Source: Arenibacter antarcticus
GTDB lineage: Bacteria; Bacteroidota; Bacteroidia; Flavobacteriales; Flavobacteriaceae
Assembly (NCBI RefSeq): GCF_041320605.1
Contig: NZ_CP166679.1
Span: 4,574,001 to 4,638,000 of the forward strand
Reading direction: 5' to 3'
DNA: 64,000 nucleotides
The notes under the pieces: model-generated
The model's input: only the letters and a program-made list of their open reading frames with translations
Databases searched by the model: none
What the model was told of the DNA's origin: nothing
Program-made: the position numbers and the translations under genes
In this document: in pieces, positions 24,166 to 38,083 of the stretch
How the letters are laid out: every line of letters starts with the position of its first letter
Numbering within the stretch: the stretch's first letter is position 1

Positions 24166-24465
24166 ATGGATTTAATTTATGGTATTTCAGAAAATATTTT
24201 TGAAAGTATAGGTATCATGGCAGGATTAAGTGCCTGTTTGGTAATTGCAATTCAAGTTTATAAAGAATACAAGTTTAAAGGCCCAAGTAGCCTTTCTAAT
24301 GGCTTTTTATTTGGTTGGGTTTTTATTTATTTGTTCTGGTGTTTGTATGGAGTCAGATTTAATACCATAGCGTTATGGCTTACCAATTCCATTGCCGTTT
24401 TATTACAACTAACACTTTGTTTTATTGTTATTAAAAAAAGTAGAACGACCCCAACCAAACCATAA
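24166..24465 (+). CDS. SemiSWEET/PQ-loop-like three-helix membrane protein
   Basis: 99 residues with three membrane helices at about 15-33, 45-62 and 70-91. The arrangement GLSACLVIAIQVYKEYKFKG, then FWCLYGVRFNT, then LTNSIAVLLQLTLCFIVIKK matches SemiSWEET half-transporters, which dimerise to pass sugars through the membrane. The usual PQ at the end of helix 1 is IQ here. Assignment is by pattern and length, so it is moderate. The next gene's likely ATG lies 19 bp after the stop, and both may share a message. Confidence 0.6.
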   Translation: MDLIYGISENIFESIGIMAGLSACLVIAIQVYKEYKFKGPSSLSNGFLFGWVFIYLFWCLYGVRFNTIALWLTNSIAVLLQLTLCFIVIKKSRTTPTKP

Positions 24466-24484
24466 TATTATCCCGAATTTCAAT

Positions 24485-25174
24485 ATGAGCTTTAAATCAA
24501 TTTCATTTTTACTCGGATATATAATCATTGTCTGCATAGATCTACTATGTGGATATTTGGACTATCAAGAATACAGACTTCTTACCAAGCCGTTGATCGT
24601 TATTTCTTTGATGATCTATTTTGGAATAAAAGGTAAACACCTGCCAAAAAGTATATACGAATATACGGTCTTAGCCATGTTCTTCTCATTAGTGGGTGAC
24701 ACATTGTTACTTTTCGACAATCGTTCACCTTCCTTTTTTATGTTTGGATTGATGTCGTTCTTACTAGCCCATATTGGCTATACCATTGTATTTATAAAAC
24801 AACGAAATACTAAATATTCCAAGGTGTCTTGGATTGTAAGTATAGGTCTTGTTACCTATGGAATTGCCCTATTTAGCTTAATAATAAAGGATTTAAGGGG
24901 ATTAATGATTCCGGTGTCTATATATATTATTGCAATTTTGACCATGGCCATTACATCCCAAAACCGGATGGGTAACGTAAGTAGGCAGAGTTATATATTG
25001 GTATTGTTAGGGGCCTTTTTCTTCATTATTTCAGATAGCATTTTGGCTATCGATAAGTTCCACGTTTCCGTACCAAAAGCACATTTTTTAATCATGGGCA
25101 CCTATGCCATTTCACAGTATCTGATCGTTAATGGTTTATTGGCCAGTATTGACCAAAACATTAAGGAAAATTAA
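24485..25174 (+). CDS. YhhN/TMEM86-family membrane protein (lysoplasmalogenase-like)
   Basis: About 229 residues with eight or so membrane helices. Family motifs are TKPLIVISLM, the FSLVGDTLLLF segment with the catalytic-region aspartate, FGLMSFLLAHIGYTIVF and GAFFFIISDSILAIDKF. TMEM86B of this family hydrolyses the vinyl-ether bond of lysoplasmalogens; bacterial members are less well studied. I chose the ATG at 24485 (MSFKSISFLLGY) because an in-frame codon at 24425 would overlap the previous gene and add a non-hydrophobic leader. Confidence 0.82.
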   Translation: MSFKSISFLLGYIIIVCIDLLCGYLDYQEYRLLTKPLIVISLMIYFGIKGKHLPKSIYEYTVLAMFFSLVGDTLLLFDNRSPSFFMFGLMSFLLAHIGYTIVFIKQRNTKYSKVSWIVSIGLVTYGIALFSLIIKDLRGLMIPVSIYIIAILTMAITSQNRMGNVSRQSYILVLLGAFFFIISDSILAIDKFHVSVPKAHFLIMGTYAISQYLIVNGLLASIDQNIKEN

Positions 25175-26300: not shown

Positions 26301-28058
26301 CTACTCTTCTTTTGTTAACTTGGGTGCTAACCATAAATACCCTATGCCCAAAATAAAAATACTATAGAACCACAATGGATTCATGAGTTGGTATTGGGAT
26401 GGAATTTTAGCAGCATCCTTTTTTGAATTAAAAAATCTTTTATTTTCCTGAATTAGATCATACCCCCGTAAAGAACTCCAAGAAAGAGTATCCATAACAT
26501 AAAATGCATTATTGGTAGTAGTATCTATTTCCAGTTGCAAACTATTCCAACCAGTTTGCCTGGGAAAAGTGGTTCCAGACCATAAATTTTTCACTTCCAC
26601 ATGCTGCATCAATGGGACGCTATACCCATCACTACTCCTAACAACGGAATCCGCTGTGAAATTATTCAATTTAAAGTTTAAAGGTTCATTTACAAATACA
26701 GGGAAATTTTCCACCTTCCAATCTGCTCCGGGAATATGCCTTTTACCTATAGCCTCAATCACTGTGGTCCAGAACTCCCTATAACCCCGTGAATCACCTA
26801 CTAACAGTAAAGAAAACGTCCCGTGCATTACCGAAGTTCCAACCCTCCCTTTTCCTAAACGCTTATATGCTGTTAACAGCGTATTATGGGATTTGTGAAT
26901 GGGTTCAACTCTCATTTCATCATGAATATGGAAGGGATATTTACTCATTTTGGTTTTTGAATCCTTTTCCCAATCCATTTCCTTTATGTTATCCTTTATG
27001 AAATTAAAATCTAGGAGATTCCCTTGTGATGTATATAAGGTTTCGTTAGGTTGAACAAAAATTCCGAGCCCATTATCCAATACCGAAACCTTCAATACCT
27101 CTAGTGTAGTTTTGGGTAATCCCAAATAAGTTTCGGAATCCATAATCAATAGGTCGAAAGCTTTAAGCAGCGTATGTGAAAGTTGATTGACCACTATTTT
27201 TTCGGTATTGAAGTATTCAAATTTGAATTTCCCTTTGGTCATTTGACTCCTTACTACCAACTCATGTCCGGCTTCTGCCAAAAAGTTTTTTAAATACTTG
27301 GTCTCAAAAGTTGGAAAACCATTTAGTATCAGCACTTTAAATATCTTTTTCTTCCTTATAATTTGCGGCAGAGGTTCCGTACCTACTATAATCCCCATCG
27401 AATCTTTTTCCACTAGAGAAAACAGGAATTGTCCCTGTACCTTACGATCGGAAATCAATGAAAATTCCTGGTTAATATAGTTGCTCATGGCAACGGAATC
27501 CAGACCAGTCCCAGCTGGATCCGTCAAGACCAATACATTGCCCGATTGAGGTTTATTGTAAACTCCCTTAACAATCAATTTTGAGCCTTCGGTCCCTTCT
27601 TGGTCATAATTCAATCGGACGACCCCTGAGGAAAGAGTACCTCCTAGATATGTGGAAGAGCGTTTTTTATATTGCCAAAAATTAAAAGGTGCTATCCCCC
27701 GCCCCAATATATAAACTGGATGTAATAGTGATAAGAAATCGGAAATATCAACTCCATCATCATAGTTCAACACCTTTAAATTATCATGTGTTTTTCTTAA
27801 ACTATCCAATAATTGGACCTGATATCCTGGAGTAAGCACGACTCCTACCATGGGATTATATTTTGAGGGTATCATAGGCTTTAATGCAATTAAGGCCAGC
27901 GCCAACAGGGCCAAAGTTGCAACCAACATCCTTACGAAAAATCTTCCTTTAGGAAATAAGGCACCTTCTTTCCAAATAAAGACACCCCATAAGAGGATAA
28001 GCCCGCCCATAATGAACCAAAACAAACGATCATTCAAAAAATAAATAGGTTCAATCAT
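26301..28058 (-). CDS. Large membrane protein at the end of the MoxR/DUF58/BatA cluster
   Basis: 585 residues. Two membrane segments near the N-terminus (about 12-28 and 40-61), a long extracytoplasmic part and a final helix near 565-580. The middle (about 240-440) looks like a GATase/vWA-type alpha/beta fold: KVLILNGFPTFETKYLKNFL, LLIMDSETYLGLP and a GKGRVGTSVMHGTFSLLLVGDS segment. I recognise no catalytic triad. Proteins of this layout occur at the end of MoxR-DUF58-BatA gene clusters. The start overlaps the preceding gene by 8 bp, so translation is probably coupled. Confidence 0.65.
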   Translation of the reverse strand: MIEPIYFLNDRLFWFIMGGLILLWGVFIWKEGALFPKGRFFVRMLVATLALLALALIALKPMIPSKYNPMVGVVLTPGYQVQLLDSLRKTHDNLKVLNYDDGVDISDFLSLLHPVYILGRGIAPFNFWQYKKRSSTYLGGTLSSGVVRLNYDQEGTEGSKLIVKGVYNKPQSGNVLVLTDPAGTGLDSVAMSNYINQEFSLISDRKVQGQFLFSLVEKDSMGIIVGTEPLPQIIRKKKIFKVLILNGFPTFETKYLKNFLAEAGHELVVRSQMTKGKFKFEYFNTEKIVVNQLSHTLLKAFDLLIMDSETYLGLPKTTLEVLKVSVLDNGLGIFVQPNETLYTSQGNLLDFNFIKDNIKEMDWEKDSKTKMSKYPFHIHDEMRVEPIHKSHNTLLTAYKRLGKGRVGTSVMHGTFSLLLVGDSRGYREFWTTVIEAIGKRHIPGADWKVENFPVFVNEPLNFKLNNFTADSVVRSSDGYSVPLMQHVEVKNLWSGTTFPRQTGWNSLQLEIDTTTNNAFYVMDTLSWSSLRGYDLIQENKRFFNSKKDAAKIPSQYQLMNPLWFYSIFILGIGYLWLAPKLTKEE

Positions 28059-30264
28059 GGCTTTGCAATTCCATTAGTAGTAATTCCTGCATTTCCCCAT
28101 AATATTCATGATCCTTTTTCGGGTCTGGTATTGGTTTGGGCAGAGCAAATAATAGGCCCCGCTGAACTTCCCATAGTATTTGACGCGAATTTTCTCCTTT
28201 TTCCACTAATTTTTTTAAAAGTTGCAAGGTGTTTAAGTATTTCCCAGGTTCCTCAATAGCTTTGGCAGCAAGTTCATGACCCGCTTCACCAAAAATTACC
28301 CTATCCTCCTCGGAAACTATACTACCAGAATCCTTAATTTTCTCCAACCTTACAATGGCAGTACGAATTGAGGGATACGTTATAGGTGCAGCTTTACGAT
28401 CTATCTTTTGATAACTGGCAATATCATCTAACTTTCCACTTAGTCTTACCGTTTCCTTAATAGGAGGTGGATCAAAGCCTATTCTATGCACATAGATACG
28501 GGCACTGTTTTTTATTTCTTGGATGAGTTTTAAAGCGCTGTATTGATAGGGAAGCGACTTCTCAGGAGCAAATAAGCGTAGTTGCAGCTCAGCGTCCCAC
28601 ATTTGATCCATGGCCTGTCTTAGTTTACTTTTAAGGGATTGTGTGAATAAGGTAGATTCCTCGGGGTCATCGTGATTATGGAGGTAACTCTCCAAAGGAT
28701 CTTCCTTCTCCATATGGATTTGTTCCCCTTGATGTTCATGATCCACCAAATTATGGCTATTGTCCCCATCATGATCATGGGTATACTCTTCTAATGGGTT
28801 ATTACTGTTAGTTTCTCCATTATTTACCAAGTTTTCTTCCTCTATGTGACTCCCCATCTCGGTTTCGTCTCCCATAAATTCCCCATATTTAATACGCAGT
28901 GCTTTCTGGTCAAAACCCAACTCGTTACTGGTATAATTAAATTCGGTTTTAGGTAAACTTGATCTGGTACCTATAAGTTTTTCCGTATCTATGATTAATT
29001 GTCGCTGACTCCTAAAATAATCGGGCATTAAATCAGCCCCTAAAGACCCTTCCACGGCGAAGTAACTGGAAACGGTGTCCCTTATTACAGCGAAATAGGT
29101 TTCGCTTCGCGATGTATTTTTATTTGGTTCCTTTTGGTCTGAGGCTTCCACATAAAAGTATAGCTCATCTCCAGCTTCCATTTTTAATTTGTCTAAATCC
29201 AGTTTTTTGGACAACGTCATATTACGACTACCAGTTACCAACCCTTTATCAAAATCCATTTTTACTTCTCGAAATTTTACAGATTCCCCCGTTCCCTTAC
29301 TTACGGTTGCGATAATATAAGCTGCCCCAATTCCATAATCGTCCTTTATATAGACATTAAAATTCAATTCTTTATTCTCATCAATATTAAAGGAGGTAAA
29401 TTGATCTATATCCTGAATTTCAATGGTCGGACTCCTATCATTAGTAACTTCAATTGGATATAATTCCGAAAAAAAAGATTTTCCAGAAGCTCCAACAAAC
29501 CTAAAATTATAAAATCCGGAGGCCCTTAGGACAATCTCCTTCCGATATTCCCCATCATTGAGCTGCATGGGAACACTAGTTCCCATACTTTCTATAAATA
29601 CGCTATCTACGGCTGTATTAAACTGAAGATTCCATGCTACTCTTGAACCTTCCAATGCCTTCACCTCCATTGTAGAGCTGGCCAACATTGGAAGCTTTGT
29701 ATAGGCAGGATAACGAATGGAAAGCCTTTGTTTCTCCAACGCTGGTATAACCGATTGGATTTCAGTGGAATCCTTAGGTTTAAAAGTAATCTGTTGTTGT
29801 GGCAATTGTTCTTGTAACCGCGGTTGTTCTTCGCCGTTGATGGATATACTGAGAATGCCCAACACTATAAATAAACATAATATGATTGTGGCTCTTTTGA
29901 AATGTGTTTCCGGTTTAATATCATTTTTGGCTACTCTTAAGTGTTCCGTTACCTTATATTTTTGCAGCACGGCCAAACTAGACAACTCTTTCTTTGGCAA
30001 GAGCATAAGACCTGTACTATACTCCAGCTGTGCCCAATCTTTATCAATCGTAGCACAGAGTCGGTCCAACGTCAATTTCCAAGGTTTTTTAAGTAGTACC
30101 AGCAGGATCAAAAGACCTCCAAAGGTGATTATAACGACTAATTTACCGACCCCTAGGATAGTAAGAAAAATGGCAGGTCCTAGGGCGTAAAGAAAAACCT
30201 CCAGCGCCCATAAGACCATCCAGCGCTTTCTAATAGCTACCAATATATCCCTTCCCGTATCCAT
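28051..30264 (-). CDS. DUF4175-like membrane protein with a His-rich segment
   Basis: About 737 residues from the ATG at 30264, whose first base is the last base of the upstream stop codon (TAATG). The N-terminus has two membrane helices (about 20-37 and 40-57) and another near 130-150. A long extracytoplasmic region with immunoglobulin-like strands (FNVYIKDDYGIGAAYIIA) follows, then alpha-helical coiled segments. Near residues 490-540 lies a striking run of HDHD, HEHQ and HNHDD motifs, with a repeated PLE(E/S)Y(T/L)H(D/N)HD unit. This resembles DUF4175-type proteins in MoxR-associated clusters. A longer in-frame reading to 30333 would overlap the BatA-type gene and is not preferred. Confidence 0.7.
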   Translation of the reverse strand: MDTGRDILVAIRKRWMVLWALEVFLYALGPAIFLTILGVGKLVVIITFGGLLILLVLLKKPWKLTLDRLCATIDKDWAQLEYSTGLMLLPKKELSSLAVLQKYKVTEHLRVAKNDIKPETHFKRATIILCLFIVLGILSISINGEEQPRLQEQLPQQQITFKPKDSTEIQSVIPALEKQRLSIRYPAYTKLPMLASSTMEVKALEGSRVAWNLQFNTAVDSVFIESMGTSVPMQLNDGEYRKEIVLRASGFYNFRFVGASGKSFFSELYPIEVTNDRSPTIEIQDIDQFTSFNIDENKELNFNVYIKDDYGIGAAYIIATVSKGTGESVKFREVKMDFDKGLVTGSRNMTLSKKLDLDKLKMEAGDELYFYVEASDQKEPNKNTSRSETYFAVIRDTVSSYFAVEGSLGADLMPDYFRSQRQLIIDTEKLIGTRSSLPKTEFNYTSNELGFDQKALRIKYGEFMGDETEMGSHIEEENLVNNGETNSNNPLEEYTHDHDGDNSHNLVDHEHQGEQIHMEKEDPLESYLHNHDDPEESTLFTQSLKSKLRQAMDQMWDAELQLRLFAPEKSLPYQYSALKLIQEIKNSARIYVHRIGFDPPPIKETVRLSGKLDDIASYQKIDRKAAPITYPSIRTAIVRLEKIKDSGSIVSEEDRVIFGEAGHELAAKAIEEPGKYLNTLQLLKKLVEKGENSRQILWEVQRGLLFALPKPIPDPKKDHEYYGEMQELLLMELQSHD

Positions 30265-31559
30265 TATTGTCTGCGGTATTTGGCCAAAATGCGTTCCCCT
30301 ACTAAAAGTACGATCAAAAATGGCCATAGCCAAAGACTTATGTTTTCCGTCCTATAAAAAACAATATCGCTCTCCAGATTAGTAATAATTGGTTCCAATT
30401 CCCTCTTCTCCATTCCCCTAATATCATAAGGTTCTATTTTATTGAATAGGTCTTTACGTAGATTTAGCATGTTCAACAGCGATTCCATTATTCCCTTTTG
30501 GAGGATATTTTCCGAATTAAGTGGTTCAGTAAGATGATACACATTGTTGCGTTTACCATTTACAATCAGTGTATTTGCCATTCCATCGGGCCTATAAACC
30601 AACTGTGGTACATTAACCGGTAAAACAGGTGCTTTGGACAACCAAACCAGCGTATGTAGCCCCGTGGTGTCCAAAGCTTCATTTTCCCTAGCTTCTTCCA
30701 CAATAATATCCCTCCTCAAGAATTTAGATAAGGCTCTATAAGCGTATTTTATGTAGGTCATCTCACTGATAAGGGAATCGTTATAAACAATTAGGATCTT
30801 TAAAGGGGTATCCAACTGTAACGGTACCTGCCTTACGTTTAACCCCCCAAATATTTGCATGCTATCCCTTGTCTCATTTATTTCTATGTTTTTATTATTT
30901 ACGGAAAACGTCTCCTTTTTAAAAGCGAGCTGCATTGCTGTCCCCATGGCGGTAAGTATGGTAACCGAATCCTGGTTGACCCTAGCCTCAACATCTCCGC
31001 TTACCTGATTGGTTGGATTGAGGACCGTCCAATTAATATTAGCTCCTACAATTGGGCGCATTCCTTTTACCCATTTCCTAGATCCTGTGGAAAATACTAC
31101 GATACTGTCCGTTGCAAGGGATTCCATTTCTTTGGCTAGTTGCCAATAATTGGGCGTATGAGCTAAACCCTCTGCACAATTATCTCCTTCCTTTAGGGGA
31201 AGACCCTTCAACAATAATCGTATCTCTCCTTGGGTAATGGTATCCAAAATTGCCTTAACTCCAACATTGTTGAAAAGTGAAGGCTCTACAATATAAGTAA
31301 TCGGTTCTTTTATTGTTGACTTTTTAAAGGTAGGTTCACTGATTATTAGGGTCAAAAGCACCATAATCAACATACGTAAAATTAGTAACGCCCACTCGTT
31401 CAAATTAATGCTACTGGTATGTCTTTGTGGCAAGGCTTCCAGCAATTTGATACTCCCAATCTTAATAACCTTTAATTTTTTCCTATTCCATAGATGAATG
31501 GCGATAGGAATTAAAAGCCCTAAAAATGTCCACAAAAAAGTAGGGTTTCCAAAGTTCAT
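30264..31559 (-). CDS. BatA-domain (aerotolerance-type) membrane protein
   Basis: 431 residues. The N-terminus MNFGNPTFLWTFLGLLIPIAIHLWNRKK is the classical BatA start: a membrane helix followed by the WNRRK-like stop. A second helix is near 59-77 (LLILRMLIMVLLTLII) and a final one near 408-425. The centre is an extracytoplasmic domain with few clear motifs; the vWA metal site DxSxS is not obvious. BatA-type proteins were first linked to aerotolerance in Bacteroides, but the mechanism is unknown. The gene starts one base after the DUF58 gene and its stop shares a base with the next start, so it is firmly part of the operon. Confidence 0.82.
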   Translation of the reverse strand: MNFGNPTFLWTFLGLLIPIAIHLWNRKKLKVIKIGSIKLLEALPQRHTSSINLNEWALLILRMLIMVLLTLIISEPTFKKSTIKEPITYIVEPSLFNNVGVKAILDTITQGEIRLLLKGLPLKEGDNCAEGLAHTPNYWQLAKEMESLATDSIVVFSTGSRKWVKGMRPIVGANINWTVLNPTNQVSGDVEARVNQDSVTILTAMGTAMQLAFKKETFSVNNKNIEINETRDSMQIFGGLNVRQVPLQLDTPLKILIVYNDSLISEMTYIKYAYRALSKFLRRDIIVEEARENEALDTTGLHTLVWLSKAPVLPVNVPQLVYRPDGMANTLIVNGKRNNVYHLTEPLNSENILQKGIMESLLNMLNLRKDLFNKIEPYDIRGMEKRELEPIITNLESDIVFYRTENISLWLWPFLIVLLVGERILAKYRRQ

Positions 31560-31560
31560 A

Positions 31561-32457
31561 TTACAGTATACTACTCCTCGTTTTTATAAATATTTGAAGT
31601 GCTTTTCCGATGGGTTCATCCATCCTAAATAATTGGTACCCTATGTTATGAGACAACAATTCATTCTTCACTGTATCTATCCTAGTATTCAGTAAAGAAA
31701 GATAGAGGTTGCGGGACATCTTTGCATTTACCTTTACACGTTTTCCCGATTCAAGATCCTCAAACAGGATGTTTCCGTTGTAGCTGAAGTCCATTTCCTT
31801 TCCCCCCATAATATGCACTACTACCACTTCATTGGTTGCTTTTTTTAACTGTTTGATGGTCGCTGTTAGTTCTTCCCCCTCTTCATGTAGGTCGGTAACA
31901 AAGAAAATCAGTTCTTTTTGGCCACTATCATGTATTTTTTGAAAGGAATGGGAATCCGTAGGCCATTTCCCTTCATTCTCTATTTGGAGAAGCTGATGAA
32001 GAAACATCTTATAATGTTGTTTTTGTCCTGATGGATAAAGACTATGTAGCTTTTGATCGTTTATTGCAAATAATCCCACCGCATCCCCTTGTTGTTCTGC
32101 CAAATAAGCCAAGGAAGCGATCAATACCCTTGCATGATCCATTTTTGAAATCTCTTTTTCCTTGTGGGCCATGGATTTACTTGCATCCAAAATAAATTTC
32201 ACGGTTATATGGGTATCAATTTCTGATTGCTTTATATAATACCGACCCGATCTAGCCAACATTTTCCAATCCATTAGGCGCATATCATCACCGGGCTGGT
32301 ACGCTCTATACTGACTAAACTGAAGCCCCTGCCCTACTCTTCTACTTTGATTTAAGCCAGTAAAATGCCCCTCCACAATAACCTTGGCAATAAGGGAAAG
32401 CCCAGAGATACTATTAATTATTTCGGGCTGTAATAGCTGATGATAATCTTGCTTCAC
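31561..32457 (-). CDS. DUF58 protein (vWA-like)
   Basis: 298 residues, no signal peptide. The hallmark is SQYRAYQPGDDMRLMDWKMLARSGR (about residues 48-72), the DUF58 signature with its D..R.IDW-type core. A vWA-like fold follows, starting FILDASKSM (metal-site DxSxS) and continuing with ELIFFVTDLHEEG. DUF58 proteins are almost always encoded beside MoxR ATPases, and are thought to be adaptors or substrates of them. Here the MoxR gene ends 12 bp upstream and the BatA gene starts 1 bp downstream. Confidence 0.9.
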   Translation of the reverse strand: MKQDYHQLLQPEIINSISGLSLIAKVIVEGHFTGLNQSRRVGQGLQFSQYRAYQPGDDMRLMDWKMLARSGRYYIKQSEIDTHITVKFILDASKSMAHKEKEISKMDHARVLIASLAYLAEQQGDAVGLFAINDQKLHSLYPSGQKQHYKMFLHQLLQIENEGKWPTDSHSFQKIHDSGQKELIFFVTDLHEEGEELTATIKQLKKATNEVVVVHIMGGKEMDFSYNGNILFEDLESGKRVKVNAKMSRNLYLSLLNTRIDTVKNELLSHNIGYQLFRMDEPIGKALQIFIKTRSSIL

Positions 32458-32469
32458 TTGTTAGTGTAC

Positions 32470-33471
32470 TTAGTTTGTAATTGCAGTGGACTTTAAAAGG
32501 TGTTGGGTGACCATGTCTGAAGTAATGCCTTCCGCCTCAGCTTTAAAATTCACTATTATCCTATGTCTCAATACTGGCAAAGCTACTTTTTTAACATCAT
32601 CCAAGGTTACTGAAAGTCTGCCTTGTTGTAATGCCCTAGCCTTGGCAGTTAGGATCATCGCCTGGCCGGCACGCGGCCCGGCACCCCAACTTACCCATTC
32701 CTTTACATACGCTTCGCTGGTGGTTTCTGGCCTTGTAGCCCTTACAACCATACTTACATATTCTACCAGCTTATCACTAATAGGTACTTCTCTAACTAGT
32801 TTTTGTAATTTAAGTATCTCCTCCCCGCTTATAACAGCTTGTATGACTTGATCCTTTATTCCGGTAGTGTGCTTTAAAATTTGTATTTCCTCCTGAGCTG
32901 TGGGATATGCTATTTTAATATAGAAAAGAAATCGATCCTGTTGGGCTTCGGGCAATGGGAAGGTACCAGATTGTTCAATGGGGTTCTGGGTAGCTAGAAT
33001 AAAAAAGGGCCTATCCAATTTATAGGTCTTCCCGGAATAGGTTACCTCAAACTCCTGCATAGCTTCCAATAGGGCCGCTTGGGTCTTTGGAGGGGTCCTG
33101 TTGATCTCATCCGCCAAAATAATATTGGCGAAAATTGGACCTTTGTTAAACTCGAAAAACTTTCTTCCCGTACTGTGGTCCTCCTCTAAAATTTCGGTTC
33201 CTATGATATCTGATGGCATAAGATCGGGGGTAAATTGGATGCGCTTAAACTTTAAATCTATGGCCTGTGCCAGCGTCTTGATCATTAATGTCTTTGCTAA
33301 ACCGGGAACCCCTTCTAAAAGGGCATGCCCTCCCGCTAAAAAGGCAATCATCAACTGCTCTATGGTTTCTTCCTGCCCAACTATTACCTTGGCAATCTCG
33401 TTTTTAAGATCCAGAAGTTTAGCGGTTAGTTGGTCTATCTCGGTTTTTATATCCATCAATTCCTTATCCAT
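32470..33471 (-). CDS. MoxR-family AAA+ ATPase
   Basis: 333 residues. Walker A is GVPGLAKT (54-61), Walker B is IILADEINRTPPKTQAALLEAMQE (about 115-138), and sensor 1 is FILATQNPIEQSGTFPLPEAQQDRF. The C-terminal lid domain closes with LPVLRHRIIVNFKAE. MoxR proteins are chaperone-like ATPases that mature vWA-containing proteins, such as methanol dehydrogenase in Paracoccus. The natural partner is the DUF58/vWA protein encoded 12 bp downstream. The start at 33471 is 11 bp after the DUF4159 stop. Confidence 0.95.
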   Translation of the reverse strand: MDKELMDIKTEIDQLTAKLLDLKNEIAKVIVGQEETIEQLMIAFLAGGHALLEGVPGLAKTLMIKTLAQAIDLKFKRIQFTPDLMPSDIIGTEILEEDHSTGRKFFEFNKGPIFANIILADEINRTPPKTQAALLEAMQEFEVTYSGKTYKLDRPFFILATQNPIEQSGTFPLPEAQQDRFLFYIKIAYPTAQEEIQILKHTTGIKDQVIQAVISGEEILKLQKLVREVPISDKLVEYVSMVVRATRPETTSEAYVKEWVSWGAGPRAGQAMILTAKARALQQGRLSVTLDDVKKVALPVLRHRIIVNFKAEAEGITSDMVTQHLLKSTAITN

Positions 33472-33482
33472 TTATTTTCTAT

Positions 33483-34103
33483 TTAAGAAGTAAGTGCGTA
33501 CATCACAATATTTACTCCAAAGCGGGTATTGTCTATTTTATACCAGCGTTTATTTCTAAAATCATAATCCCACTCGCAGCCATAGTCCTTATTACTGTAT
33601 AACACACCAATTCTTCCGTCTATTTCAATAGCCTTTAAATACTCGTGTACCAAATCATCGCCCCAACCGTTGAGTTCCTGTGAGGTTGTAGGCGGACCGT
33701 CTTCAAATTCAAAAAAAATAGAATAGAGCTCATGGTCATTCGGAATTTTTTTCAGTGTCCCCGTGCCAAAAATATCATCCATCTGGCGTTCAAAAGATTT
33801 TGCGAACAAACCATCTATATCGTGATTGCAATCATCGGCAAAGACAAATCCACCATTCCGTACATACTTTTCAAAGTTCTCCCTTTCTTTTTTGGTAAAC
33901 TGTACTAGTTTATGGCCAGAAATATAGCAAAAGGGACACTCAAAAATATCATCACTTGCCAAAGGAATAATATTTTCTCGGGTATCTACCGCCAAGGTAG
34001 TATACTCTACCAAAGAATTAAGTAGGTTGGAAGGCATACGCTGATCCACATCCCAATTTCCTGATTCATATTGTAATCTCGTAAAAAAAAACTTATTGCT
34101 CAA
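33483..34103 (-). CDS. DUF4159 domain protein
   Basis: 206 residues. It begins FFFTRLQYESGNWDVDQRMPSNLL, the characteristic DUF4159 opening (R..Y.GG.W...). A GATase-like core follows, with FCYISGHKLVQFTKKERENFEKYVRNGGFVFADDCN; the pattern of small residues around the central strand is typical. No signal peptide is visible, although many DUF4159 proteins are exported. The family has no known activity and is repeatedly found with MoxR/DUF58/BatA genes, as here. It heads the second leftward unit, after the terminator that follows TldE. Confidence 0.85.
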   Translation of the reverse strand: MSNKFFFTRLQYESGNWDVDQRMPSNLLNSLVEYTTLAVDTRENIIPLASDDIFECPFCYISGHKLVQFTKKERENFEKYVRNGGFVFADDCNHDIDGLFAKSFERQMDDIFGTGTLKKIPNDHELYSIFFEFEDGPPTTSQELNGWGDDLVHEYLKAIEIDGRIGVLYSNKDYGCEWDYDFRNKRWYKIDNTRFGVNIVMYALTS

Positions 34104-34180
34104 TGCTTATGTAGGTTCCTTAAGTTATTTATCGTACTAATGTTCCCACATTAAGGTGCTATAAAAACCTTACCATGGAA

Positions 34181-34222
34181 AATAAAAAACTGGTTACTTA
34201 TGAATGTCATAGCAACCAGTTT
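34181..34222 (-). terminator. Intrinsic terminator after tldE
   Basis: Read on the minus strand, AAACTGGTT (34222-34214) pairs with AACCAGTTT (34195-34187), with further pairs ATGA/TCAT inside, and is followed by a T-rich tract (34189-34181). It lies just after the TldE stop at 34240. It separates TldD-TldE from the DUF4159-MoxR unit. Confidence 0.75.
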
Positions 34223-34239
34223 AACAGTATTAATTTGTT

Positions 34240-35553
34240 CTATACGGCATCGGACAAGCTAGTAAAGGTAAAATCCCTAACCTTCATATAAGGGATTAAA
34301 TCACCGTTCATCCTAACCTGTTTCCCAAGGGTTTCAAGGTTATTCAGCATAATTATAGGACTTTCATTAAACCTAAAGTTTTTCACAGGGTGCTTAATCT
34401 TTCCATTTTCAATATAAAAAGTTCCATCACGTGTAAGACCAGTGTAAAGCAATGTTTGCGGATCTACACTTCTAATGTACCACAATCTGGTAACCAAAAT
34501 TCCCTTTTTAGTGTCTTTTATCAGGTCTTCCAAGGATGCCGAACCACCTTCCATAATAAAATTGGAAGGATAAGGCACAGGGCTAACGCCTTTCTGTTCT
34601 GCCCAATATCGACTATAAGAAAGGTTTTTTACCACCCCATTTTCTATCCAGCTCATTTTCTTAAGGGGTTGTCCTTCTCCATTCCAAGTAGCTGTTGGGA
34701 CTTCGGGATGCAGGGGATCTGACCAAATATTCACCCTTTCGTCTACAATCTTTTGACCTAATTTATTGCCCCCATCTTTGGACATAAAGCTTCTTCCCTC
34801 ATCCGCTCTTCTAGAATCGAAAGAACCAAACATATTGCGAAGCAAATCTGCGGAAGCCGCGGGTTCTAAGATTACCGTATATCTCCCTGGTTCTATCGCT
34901 TTCGCCTCCTTGGACATCAAAGCTTTCTCCATGGCAATTTTTGAGGCTTCTGAAGCATCAAATTTAGTTATATCGTTAAAATCCCTGGATACCCATCCGG
35001 AACCGGTACCATCATTGGTTCTCATAGTTACGGTGAAATCAGAATCCGTTGATTTATTATAGGCGAAAAGCCCGTTAGAATTCATCATCGCACTAAATCC
35101 TGAAGAGTCGTTAAAAAACCCTGCAGCCGTCACCTCATTCATTGTTGCTGGGTCAATACTACTACTGGCCACATTGGCCCGATATTCCGGGGTTATATTT
35201 GCTGTTTCCTCATTATAACTAATGGAGTCGTCATAGGACTGCGGACCTAATGGCTCCATAAATTCAGGGTTTTCAGGCGATAATTTAGCCAGTTCCTCTG
35301 CTCTTCTAACCACCTTTTCCAAAGAAACATCATCGAACTCATCTATAGTAGCTGTACCAGATTTTTTACCAAAGCTAGATTGTATAGACAAGTTTTGATT
35401 TGATCGGTGACCAGAGGTAGAAACCGTATTCCGGGCATATCTAATATTGCCACTCTCACTGCCATTCATATTAATTTCGCAAGCATCCGCTGTGGAAAAG
35501 CTCATTGCTTTTTCCATGATACGCTTAGCTTCATCCTTTGTATATATTGCCAT
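34240..35553 (-). CDS. TldE/PmbA-type protein, partner of TldD
   Basis: 437 residues. It has the TldD/PmbA fold, with RYARNTVSTSGHRSNQNLSIQSSFGKKSGTA near the N-terminus, VILEPAASADLLRNMFGSFDSRR (about residues 225-247) and the glycine-rich FIMEGGSASLEDLI. The zinc-site HExxxH is absent, as expected for TldE, which forms a heterodimer with the metal-binding TldD. Together, E. coli TldD-TldE process peptides such as microcin B17 and the CcdA antitoxin. No signal peptide is present, unlike the TldD gene 29 bp upstream. A terminator follows at 34181-34222. Confidence 0.87.
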   Translation of the reverse strand: MAIYTKDEAKRIMEKAMSFSTADACEINMNGSESGNIRYARNTVSTSGHRSNQNLSIQSSFGKKSGTATIDEFDDVSLEKVVRRAEELAKLSPENPEFMEPLGPQSYDDSISYNEETANITPEYRANVASSSIDPATMNEVTAAGFFNDSSGFSAMMNSNGLFAYNKSTDSDFTVTMRTNDGTGSGWVSRDFNDITKFDASEASKIAMEKALMSKEAKAIEPGRYTVILEPAASADLLRNMFGSFDSRRADEGRSFMSKDGGNKLGQKIVDERVNIWSDPLHPEVPTATWNGEGQPLKKMSWIENGVVKNLSYSRYWAEQKGVSPVPYPSNFIMEGGSASLEDLIKDTKKGILVTRLWYIRSVDPQTLLYTGLTRDGTFYIENGKIKHPVKNFRFNESPIIMLNNLETLGKQVRMNGDLIPYMKVRDFTFTSLSDAV

Positions 35554-35582
35554 AATATTAAAATTATTTGTCGTAAAATATG

Positions 35583-37223
35583 TTAGATAGTCCTACCGGT
35601 ATTGATTACGTTAACGTTTTTAAATCTGGAAGTAGCACTCCCATGTGATACCGCACTGACTTGGGAGGGCTGCCCCTTCCCATCGAAAAATGATCCAAAT
35701 TGGCGATAATCGGTTTCATCACATATTTTAACGCAGGAATTCCAAAACTCCTGTGTGTTGGATTGATAAGCAACGTCATCTAACATGCCAACGATTTCCC
35801 CATTTTTTATCTCGTAACATACGGTGCCTCCAAATTGGAAGTTATACCGTTGTTGATCTATGGAATATGAACCTCTTCCTACGATATAGATACCTTTCTC
35901 CACATCTTTGATCATTTGGTGTATGGAATATTTATCCTTGCCTGGTTCTAAAGAAACATTGGGCATACGTTGAAACTGTACATCGTTCCAACTCTGTGCA
36001 TAACAACAACCATGGGATTCATTCTGATCTATCATATGCACTTGATCCCGGATTGCCTGATAATTGGTCAGGATACCGTTACGGACAAGATCCCATTTCT
36101 TGGTCTTAACCCCTTCATCATCATACCCTACTGCTCCTAACGAGCCGGGCTGAGTTTTATCTGCTACCAAGTTTACAATATCACTTCCGTATTGAAAATC
36201 CTTTGACTTCCACTTATCCAAGGTTGCAAAACTGGTTCCCGCGTAATTGGCCTCATAACCAAGTACCCGATCCAGTTCCAATGGATGTCCCACAGATTCA
36301 TGAATGGTCAATCCCAAGTGGTTGGGCTCCAATACTAGATCATATTTACCAGGATCCACAGATTTGGCAGTAAGCATTTCCTTTGCTTGCTTTGCCGCCA
36401 TAGCAGCATCCTCAATCATATCATAACTATTTCTATACAAAATAAGTCCGGCTGGACCCTCCAATTTCTCGGAATCCAAACCGTCCATATACTCATACCC
36501 CATACCCATTGGTGCGCTTAATGCCTGTCGCGATTTAAACTTGCCTGCTACACGATCTACCGCGGTTACTCCAAAAGTTGGCCAAATACGATGAATATCT
36601 TGATCGATATAAGAACCGTCGGTGGAAGCAAAATATTTCTGCTCATTGACCATAAATAGTGCAGAATTGGCGAAATTTGCTCCATTTTCCATTGCTGCTG
36701 CATTGGAACTCAACAAAAGATCTACCTTTTCCGAAACTGGAACTTCCTTAAAATCCTTTTTAATCGGTGTTTTCCATGAAACTTCTCCATAAGCCATAAC
36801 CGGGGCCAGCTTTACTGGATCTTTCTGAATCTTGGAGTTCGCTTTGGCAATGGCGACCGCCTTTTCAGTAGCTTTTTTAATACCATCTTGGGAAACATTA
36901 TTTGTAGAGGCAAAACCCCATGTCCCATTAGCGATTACCCTGATACCAATCCCAAAAGATTCTGTATTTACCACATTCTGTACCTTATCTTCCCTAGTAA
37001 ACACATACTGATTGAGGTATCTGCCAATTCTGGCATCCGCATAAGTGGCCCCTAGCGACTTTGCTGTGTTTAAGGCCACATCGGCCATGATTTTTTTGGT
37101 GATCTTATCCATGCCAGGTTCTAACAATGCCTGCTCGGGAATATTATTTCCCATAAAAAGAGATGGCATCAATAAAGCCCCGGCACCCAATCCCGCATAT
37201 TGAACAAAATTTCGTCGTTTCAT
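35583..37223 (-). CDS. tldD: TldD-type metalloprotease with Tat signal
   Basis: 546 residues. The N-terminus MKRRNFVQYAGLGAGALLMP has the twin arginine, a hydrophobic stretch and A/G-rich region of a Tat signal peptide. The zinc-binding HExxxH is HESVGH (near residue 308) in LGLTIHESVGHPLELDRVLG, with the distal region ESHGCCYAQSWNDVQF also conserved in kind. TldD-TldE are metalloproteases acting on unfolded peptides; known cases are cytoplasmic. The Tat signal suggests export of folded protein. The longer length (about 480 in E. coli) reflects the signal and small insertions. TldE follows at 29 bp. Confidence 0.88.
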   Translation of the reverse strand: MKRRNFVQYAGLGAGALLMPSLFMGNNIPEQALLEPGMDKITKKIMADVALNTAKSLGATYADARIGRYLNQYVFTREDKVQNVVNTESFGIGIRVIANGTWGFASTNNVSQDGIKKATEKAVAIAKANSKIQKDPVKLAPVMAYGEVSWKTPIKKDFKEVPVSEKVDLLLSSNAAAMENGANFANSALFMVNEQKYFASTDGSYIDQDIHRIWPTFGVTAVDRVAGKFKSRQALSAPMGMGYEYMDGLDSEKLEGPAGLILYRNSYDMIEDAAMAAKQAKEMLTAKSVDPGKYDLVLEPNHLGLTIHESVGHPLELDRVLGYEANYAGTSFATLDKWKSKDFQYGSDIVNLVADKTQPGSLGAVGYDDEGVKTKKWDLVRNGILTNYQAIRDQVHMIDQNESHGCCYAQSWNDVQFQRMPNVSLEPGKDKYSIHQMIKDVEKGIYIVGRGSYSIDQQRYNFQFGGTVCYEIKNGEIVGMLDDVAYQSNTQEFWNSCVKICDETDYRQFGSFFDGKGQPSQVSAVSHGSATSRFKNVNVINTGRTI

Positions 37224-37690
37224 ATAAAACTCGTTTTTATTTAATGTTTACTAATTTCAGTCTAAATTGATTGATCCTTTCAGAAGCATCATTTATCCGC
37301 TGCCGAGAAAGGAATCCTGAATTAAAGTATGGCAAGTTCTACCAATAGTTTTTAAGAATATATTGCCAGAAAATAGATGGGCTATTGGACTTCCAAAAAA
37401 CATAAGCCCCATTTAATTATCTCTAATCCGTTTCTAAAAATAGTGATTTTATATAAACTATCAATATTTAACAGTGAGTTCGTTTTTTGTTATGAATTTA
37501 CTATAGGAAGAAAAATAGGAAGCCATAACTTGATATAGCCCAATATTTTCATTTGTTGAAGGATTTTATTGGAATTTAATAAGGCAATCAACGCAAACAG
37601 CCCATTTAGAGTAGAAGCGGGTAAGTTTGTGTTGGAAATCTATGTATAGGATTGTACTATGCCATTAGGCACCCCTCCAGATTGGTTAAT
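37224..37690. other. Intergenic region, nothing recognised
   Basis: 467 bp between the leftward TldD start and the end of a leftward hypothetical gene. It is AT-rich with many stops. I found neither a clear promoter pair for tldD nor a strong hairpin or reading frame. Confidence 0.5.
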
Positions 37691-38083
37691 CTATTGAAAA
37701 GGATCTAAAGAGTGTTCCTTGGGGTTTTCATTATTGCTCAATATTCCCTTTTCTTTGAACAGCCTATAGATCATTCTCTTTTCTTCCAAACTAAAGGAGC
37801 GATCAGCAAACCAATCCCTCACGGCTATTTTTTCATTTTCCGCTTCTGCTCTCTGCAGTATTTCTTCGGAAACCAAATACCAGTAAACCCATCGGTTGTT
37901 GGCCTGGGAATAACAAAAATCGTTATCTAGCGCCGAGGTAGTCTTGATATTTCTTATTCTTTCACCATTTTCCAAAATAGCCAAGGTTTTAGTCAATCGC
38001 ACAACTTCAGAAAAGGTATATCGCATAAAATCGCTGAATCCATTCTGACTAACATTATATAGCTTATCGCCTACTTTTAGCAT
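37691..38083 (-). CDS. Hypothetical small soluble protein
   Basis: 130 residues, without signal peptide or membrane segment. It opens MLKVGDKLYNVSQNGFSDFMRY, which resembles a small beta-barrel, and includes GERIRNIKTT and a W-rich stretch NNRWVYWYLVSEEILQRAEAENEK. The C-terminus is charged and helical (EEKRMIYRLFKEKG). I do not recognise a named family. A TATTTTTG -7-like element (plus 38107-38114) lies 24 bp before the ATG, without a matched TTG. Its neighbours give no functional clue. Confidence 0.6.
   Translation of the reverse strand: MLKVGDKLYNVSQNGFSDFMRYTFSEVVRLTKTLAILENGERIRNIKTTSALDNDFCYSQANNRWVYWYLVSEEILQRAEAENEKIAVRDWFADRSFSLEEKRMIYRLFKEKGILSNNENPKEHSLDPFQ

Follow-up and report, generated by a model that had tools for sequence, protein, structure and literature searches.

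MoxR-type ATPases associated with diverse cellular activities (AAA+) and their von Willebrand factor A (vWA) partners form systems that are, to our knowledge, widespread, with few known clients. Among them, mxaRSACKL of methanol dehydrogenase is a metal- or cofactor-insertion system. NorQ/NorD, in which a vWA adaptor joins the MoxR ring, is reported to remodel a membrane client (PMC9976466). Here we describe an eight-gene module in a stretch of 64,000 nucleotides from Arenibacter antarcticus (contig NZ_CP166679.1, positions 4,574,001 to 4,638,000; hereafter the window), in which a MoxR ATPase and a vWA-like DUF58 protein are encoded alongside a TldD/TldE-type protease (TldDE), a DUF4159 protein and three membrane proteins. 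The module shares with NorQ/NorD a MoxR ATPase and a vWA protein with a DxSxS motif, and adds the protease and the three membrane proteins.

The TldD/TldE enzyme of Escherichia coli is regarded as cytosolic, and we know of few roles for TldD/E beyond microcin and antitoxin processing. Its two subunits form a stable heterodimer that is active only with both present, and entry of unfolded peptides into this shell protease, N-terminus first, has been proposed (PMC5810440). The pair encoded in the module is similar in having a TldD with HExxxH and a conserved cysteine and a TldE without HExxxH, and differs in that TldD has a signal like those for twin-arginine translocation (Tat) and comes together with a MoxR module. 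TldD and MoxR are also named, as separate proteome spots, in PMC4287336.

Two reported operons also bear comparison. In Stenotrophomonas maltophilia, RNA-seq work reports an operon, NIPOLPBK_01784-01792, described as not yet characterized. Its products are a MoxR-like ATPase, a pair of TldD proteins, a putative protease, one membrane protein and three hypothetical proteins, and in the biofilms of every isolate some of its genes were downregulated (PMC7688217). From its content and from the presence of the module in Luteimonas and Lysobacter, rather than by sequence, this operon is probably an earlier sighting of the module. In Rhizobium leguminosarum, membrane integrity and cell morphology are reported to depend on the operon cmdA-cmdD (RL3499-RL3502), which is headed by a MoxR of the MRP subfamily (PMC3893208, PMC5700661), and RL3499, RL3500 and RL3501 have growth defects in the tables of transposon screens (PMC5118466, PMC4255674). 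It has four genes against the module's eight. We take these to include DUF58 and a fusion of BatA-N with DUF4159, and presumably no TldDE. If this content holds, cmdA-D is the closest relative for which a phenotype is on record, and points to the envelope.

The original prediction for this region, made from its letters alone, had put it forward as a candidate for an undescribed system. The S. maltophilia operon of matching content and the envelope phenotype of the related cmdA-D speak against its being wholly undescribed. Our literature search found no paper using the term DUF4159.

The eight-gene module

Six leftward genes had been proposed between 26301 and 34103, and the open reading frames confirm all their coordinates and tight packing on the minus strand. 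The DUF4159 gene (33483..34103, 206 residues, PF13709 at 8e-53), whose product has no signal in the window copy, is followed after 11 bp by that of the MoxR AAA+ ATPase (32470..33471, 333 residues, AAA_3 at 2.1e-63 and AAA_lid_2 at 1.4e-17), after another 12 bp by that of the DUF58 protein (31561..32457, 298 residues), and after 1 bp by that of a BatA-N (two_anch) membrane protein (30264..31559, 431 residues, PF07584 at 2.3e-16 and TIGR02226 at 5.1e-17). The fifth gene encodes a DUF4175-like membrane protein (PF13779 at 2.1e-6, 26.5 bits against a cut-off of 27.3). Its listed frame of 760 residues has a TTG start and a 70 bp overlap with BatA; an in-frame ATG at 30264, overlapping the BatA stop by a single base (TAATG), is most likely the true start, giving a gene of ~737 residues on the minus strand at 28051..30264. 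The same frame overlaps by 8 bp the last gene (26301..28058), whose 585-residue membrane protein matches no Pfam or NCBIfam family over cut-off.

Limiting the unit to these six genes missed two further members. On the same strand, the gene of a TldE/PmbA-type subunit (34240..35553, 437 residues) lies 136 bp upstream of DUF4159, and that of a TldD-type metalloprotease subunit (35583..37223, 546 residues) lies 29 bp upstream of TldE. Both products have Pfam PmbA_TldD domains; TldD begins with a Tat-like signal (MKRRNF) and contains the motif HESVGH, and TldE has neither a signal nor HExxxH. Promoter-like sites were no commoner in the cluster region than in shuffles (36 against 35.2), terminator-like sites were not in excess over shuffles (5 against 9.3), and the Bacteroidota-type promoter pattern had no match within 26301-37700.

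Conservation was assessed in 111 loci, comprising 32 from a sample of 392 Bacteroidota genomes, one from a relative (G025), 77 from a scan of species genomes (the best 80 of 595, three being dropped as duplicates) and the window itself, with module genes called by profiles of the eight proteins encoded there. All eight genes occur in 77 loci, in 62 of which they lie on one strand in the order of the window, TldD-TldE-DUF4159-MoxR-DUF58-BatA-DUF4175-like-585. In a further 13 complete loci DUF4159 is divergent from MoxR, and TldDE adjoins DUF4159, lies beyond the gene for the 585-residue protein, or both; the remaining two have their gene order broken by an extra frame. The five-gene order from MoxR to the 585-residue protein is kept in 88 of the 89 loci that have all five, and the cluster lies within 1.1 kb of the stretch end in 23 of the 34 incomplete loci. 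Outside Bacteroidota, Luteimonas (L137) and Lysobacter (L138) have all eight genes, and a Gemmatimonadales bin (L129, 3.6 kb) has TldE, DUF4159 and MoxR. The original prediction had named a lack of synteny in other species as one of two findings that would count against it; in the loci compared here the gene order is conserved.

The eight proteins have diverged to different extents. Median identity to the window copy is 73% for DUF4159, 71% for TldD, 66% for MoxR (100 copies) and 63% for TldE, against 40% for DUF58, 30% for the DUF4175-like protein, 22% for the 585-residue protein and 21% for BatA. Judged by identity, the most constrained parts of the module are DUF4159, TldD, MoxR and TldE.

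Co-occurrence of DUF4159 and TldD

The sample of 392 Bacteroidota genomes, taken from its equal size and shared handles to be the same for both searches, contains a close DUF4159 (at least 68% identity) in 33 genomes, that of the window among them, the other matches listed being at 28-38%. TldD at 61% identity or more was found in exactly these 33 genomes (TldD search at E 1e-20), a co-occurrence with a Fisher value of 9e-49 when genomes are treated as independent, which they are not. The two genes are no more than 10 kb apart on one contig in 25 of the 33. In three (G363, G332, G324) TldE adjoins DUF4159 and TldD is on another contig, and in five (G182, G293, G194, G137, G411) DUF4159 and TldD lie apart, with neither TldD nor TldE beside DUF4159 in the stretch. 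Since a close TldD is present even in these five unlinked genomes, linkage alone does not explain the co-occurrence. Within the sample, a close DUF4159 never occurs without a close TldD, and TldDE can exist without the module.

This association bears on the possibility that the module is a second Bat-like stress-tolerance operon with TldDE as a passenger. Both have the MoxR-DUF58-BatA core, recognised in the module by Pfam, together with membrane proteins whose domains lie outside the membrane, and the Bat operon of Riemerella is reported to affect oxidative and heat tolerance (PMC11834572). A passenger, however, would not be expected to accompany the DUF4159 of the module in 33 of 33 genomes. 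Moreover, the Bat operon has VWA, TPR and BatD genes where the module has TldDE, DUF4159 and the DUF4175-like gene, and in Bat vWA proteins DxSxS follows BatA-N. The assignment of the protein at 30264..31559 to BatA holds for its BatA-N domain but not for this motif, which is present in 0 of 93 copies. The module is distinct from the Bat operon, because a canonical Bat operon with VWA, TPR and BatD genes lies elsewhere in the same genome (L009), and the eight module proteins give no VWA (beyond DUF58), TPR or BatD match. We consider a Bat-like role improbable.

The A. antarcticus genome has two further loci of related content. A third MoxR-DUF58 cluster (L011:8874-13188, C1 ~2990098) includes a DUF4350 protein, and DUF4129 is matched there below threshold. 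At L010:8633-9562 (C1 ~1020758) a DUF58 gene has no MoxR match in its 19-kb stretch; its product scores best against the module profile of the genome's DUF58 proteins outside the module (289 bits, where the Bat DUF58 scores 258), and the neighbouring frame L010:8039-8374 resembles, by eye, a piece of a transposase.

TldD, TldE and DUF4159

The window TldD matches the E. coli TldD structure 5nj5_A at 4e-13, and the window TldE matches the PmbA-type structures 1vpb_A and 5nj5_B. Across 104 TldD copies H308, E309 and H313 are invariant and C497 is conserved at 0.98, and none of the TldE copies listed has HExxxH. By a simple motif test, which looked at the N-terminus for a twin-arginine motif with a hydrophobic stretch behind it, a Tat-like signal is present in 102 of the 104 TldD copies (90 with RR, 12 with RK or KR) and in none of 98 TldE copies. 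TatC was found in all 34 module genomes. That of the two subunits only TldD has the signal suggests, without being proof, that TldE is carried along by its partner. Two or three tandem copies of TldD and TldE, adjoining either the module or one another, occur in several loci, for example L043, L057, L058, L069, L098 and L106, and also L110, L113, L117, L122, L135, L141-L143, L149, L187 and L190.

DUF4159 is 66-91% identical to the window copy across 111 copies, in which C92, H94, H64 and H124 are invariant and C176 and H153 are conserved at 0.99. Its solved relative in a profile search is 4i66_A, at 4.9e-16. A Tat-like signal of its own is found in 11 of the 111 copies, among them those of Chlorobiales type (L079, L080) and of Balneolaceae (L120). 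Signal-less and signal-bearing forms probably work in the same compartment, because signal-less copies are 68-79% identical to one that bears a signal (L044). A distant paralogue in the same genome has HIDDNYG at the site of the window protein's FADDCNHD, and a plasmid collection had no DUF4159 match. A fold shared between DUF4159 and the 585-residue protein was considered and dropped, there being no profile link and an hhalign probability of 0.6%. Another DUF4159 architecture was seen in L074, L075, L076 and L077, as proteins of 464-529 residues without module genes; by eye, one copy in each of L074 and L076 has an N-terminal anchor resembling a transmembrane (TM) segment and the other is lipoprotein-like.

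Were the Tat-like N-termini non-functional, TldDE, DUF4159, MoxR and DUF58 could instead form a cytosolic, ATP-fed protease in which MoxR unfolds clients for the TldDE shell. This would agree with the unfolded clients reported for the E. coli enzyme (PMC5810440), and with the lack of signals in TldE and most DUF4159 copies. It is hard to reconcile with Tat-like signals on nearly every TldD copy and also on 11 DUF4159 proteins, or with three partners whose large domains are flanked by TM segments, and seems quite improbable.

MoxR, DUF58 and the membrane proteins

A MoxR beside a vWA-like DUF58 protein had been recognised at the outset, and both assignments stand. The window MoxR contains the Walker motifs GVPGLAKT and LADEIN, and the DUF58 protein (PF01882 at 6.8e-35, with VWA_2 at 2.8e-4, under cut-off) has the DxSxS motif as DASKS, kept in 95 of 96 copies. 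As a separate candidate, anti-phage defence was rejected, PADLOC profiles giving only a weak DolB match to MoxR (16.1 bits).

The expectation that the membrane proteins have large extramembrane domains was likewise supported, TM segments flanking large domains in three module proteins. In the BatA-like protein, TM-like segments at 51-69 and 407-425 flank a large middle domain. An AlphaFold2 model of the 760-residue DUF4175-like frame (predicted local distance difference test, pLDDT, 77.5) contains TM helices, two beta-sandwich (Ig/FnIII-like) domains, a helical C-terminal part and a disordered loop rich in histidine and aspartate (490-560, pLDDT below 50); Foldseek matches are mostly to multi-domain beta-sandwich proteins, with low TM-scores. 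The predicted model of the 585-residue protein has two N-terminal TM segments, beta-sandwich parts, a GATase1/GIFT-like domain at 238-443, which would lie in the periplasm, and a C-terminal TM segment.

Some of these features would also suit metal or cofactor insertion, the main rival, in which MoxR/DUF58 and the membrane proteins would, in the manner of NorQ/NorD, load metal into a periplasmic enzyme, with TldDE removing a propeptide or failed apo-protein. The pairing of MoxR with a DxSxS vWA protein has its precedent in NorQD (PMC9976466), DUF4159 has invariant cysteine and histidine residues, and the loop of the DUF4175-like protein includes an invariant histidine (H554, conserved at 1.00 in 92 copies). 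The histidine-rich stretch of that loop is, however, reduced to a single histidine in 9 of 57 sequences. Nor does a metalloenzyme gene recur beside the module, or indeed any ninth gene: the widest unassigned family of at least 70 residues is found in 4 of 34 loci of the first locus set, the species-scan loci being left out. Metal insertion could be what this same machine does to another client, and we hold it to be rather unlikely.

A proposed envelope machine

The reading that we tentatively favour, at somewhat less than an even chance, is that the eight genes encode one envelope machine for maturation or quality control, in which Tat-exported TldDE and DUF4159 are served by a cytosolic MoxR/DUF58 motor. 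TldD would acquire its fold and its metal in the cytosol before export by Tat. Signal-less TldE would leave together with this partner, and the same route would probably serve DUF4159, which in some lineages has a Tat signal of its own to use. Once in the periplasm, TldD/TldE would trim unfolded polypeptides, with DUF4159, given its invariant cysteines and histidines, as a companion enzyme or metal-site protein. The BatA, DUF4175-like and GIFT-domain proteins would be anchored in the inner membrane, their large domains facing the periplasm, and would present or remodel the client, and the MoxR ring with its DUF58 vWA adaptor would supply ATP-driven force from the cytosol. The net task would be the maturation or quality control of at least one extracytoplasmic protein. 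In favour of this reading are the recurrence of the eight genes in one order, the co-occurrence of TldD with DUF4159, the distribution of the Tat-like signals, the conservation of the TldD metal ligands and of DxSxS in DUF58, and the precedents of E. coli TldD/E, NorQ/NorD and cmdA-D.

Several observations weigh against this proposal. DUF4159 is unlinked in some lineages, TldD lying ~530 kb away in G411, and it stands alone in 7 of the 111 loci, two of these being near the stretch end. TldD at 49-55% identity is found without a close DUF4159 in 8 of the 392 genomes (at 25-28% in four more), and seven of those eight loci (L176-L182) are lone TldD-TldE pairs, their TldD N-termini again Tat-like; as such pairs exist, TldDE can work without the module. 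The signals themselves vary, two TldD copies (L116, L118) having RS and 12 having RK or KR in place of RR. TatC is common anyway, being found in 11 of 14 control genomes, which makes its presence weak support. A TldD homodimer of Sulfolobus solfataricus is mentioned as active in PMC5810440, and TldE therefore need not travel with TldD. Finally, the steps that lead from the observed gene content, order, co-occurrence, signal-like N-termini, catalytic and DxSxS motifs and TM-like segments to such a machine, namely export, topology, complex formation, hitch-hiking, cross-membrane coupling and the client, are all ones that we infer. The Rhizobium operon fits the envelope part of the proposal and does not separate it from its rivals, and it left our weighing of them as it was. 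In four of the lone-pair loci (L178-L181) the pair lies, by eye, between topoisomerase-like and recombinase-like genes, in the same order.

The client could also be a small peptide precursor cut by TldDE, as in the maturation of a ribosomally synthesised and post-translationally modified peptide (RiPP) or of pyrroloquinoline quinone (PQQ). TldD/E is reported to mature microcin B17 (PMC5810440), and a role in PQQ supply is the authors' speculation for Gluconobacter TldD/E (PMC8602642). Clustering of 2528 small frames nearby gave no widely conserved precursor-like frame; the widest cluster extends over 8 loci, and those shown resemble shadow frames of other genes. PqqE (TIGR02109) was over cut-off in none of the 34 module genomes, with weak matches in 30, and the controls gave no positive either. 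Peptide maturation is the possibility to which we would give least weight, and very improbable.

A more specific form of the envelope machine would be a transmembrane AAA+ protease of new layout, with TldD-TldE-DUF4159 crossing, already folded, as a single Tat cargo led by the TldD signal alone, and MoxR/DUF58 acting via the GIFT- and Ig-domain proteins, such that cytosolic ATP would drive proteolytic maturation in the periplasm. We see this as unlikely, though if true it would mean ATP-driven processing in the periplasm, a compartment that has no ATP. More generally, a recurring set that unites MoxR/vWA with TldDE turns the DUF4159, DUF58 and DUF4175 annotations into a testable hypothesis of envelope processing.

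Patchy distribution

Similar clusters had been stated to be known in Bacteroidota and related phyla. They are present in Bacteroidota, but the module is patchy rather than general, being limited to the 33 of 392 genomes noted above and, among 18 genomes of the same genus, to that of the window. It is absent from all 17 relatives, in each of which the single DUF4159 is the core paralogue. This distribution, with module-less relatives in the same genus, offers a natural comparison for a client search.

In two relatives (L159, L160) the site is empty, the left neighbour, a gene for a GAF protein, lying ~200 bp from the right neighbours (genes of 130 and 192 residues). The other 15 stretches, which cover 1.5 kb per side with one shorter, contain no module gene, and their right-hand neighbours are not reached or are lacking. 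The module is not compositionally foreign, its guanine-plus-cytosine content of 0.396 comparing with 0.370 and 0.400 in the flanks, and the empty site alone therefore cannot separate gain from loss. To the left of the module, the membrane protein at 24425-25174 appears, by eye, to be YhhN/lysoplasmalogenase-like, and its relatives adjoin the GAF gene in most of the same-genus stretches without the module.

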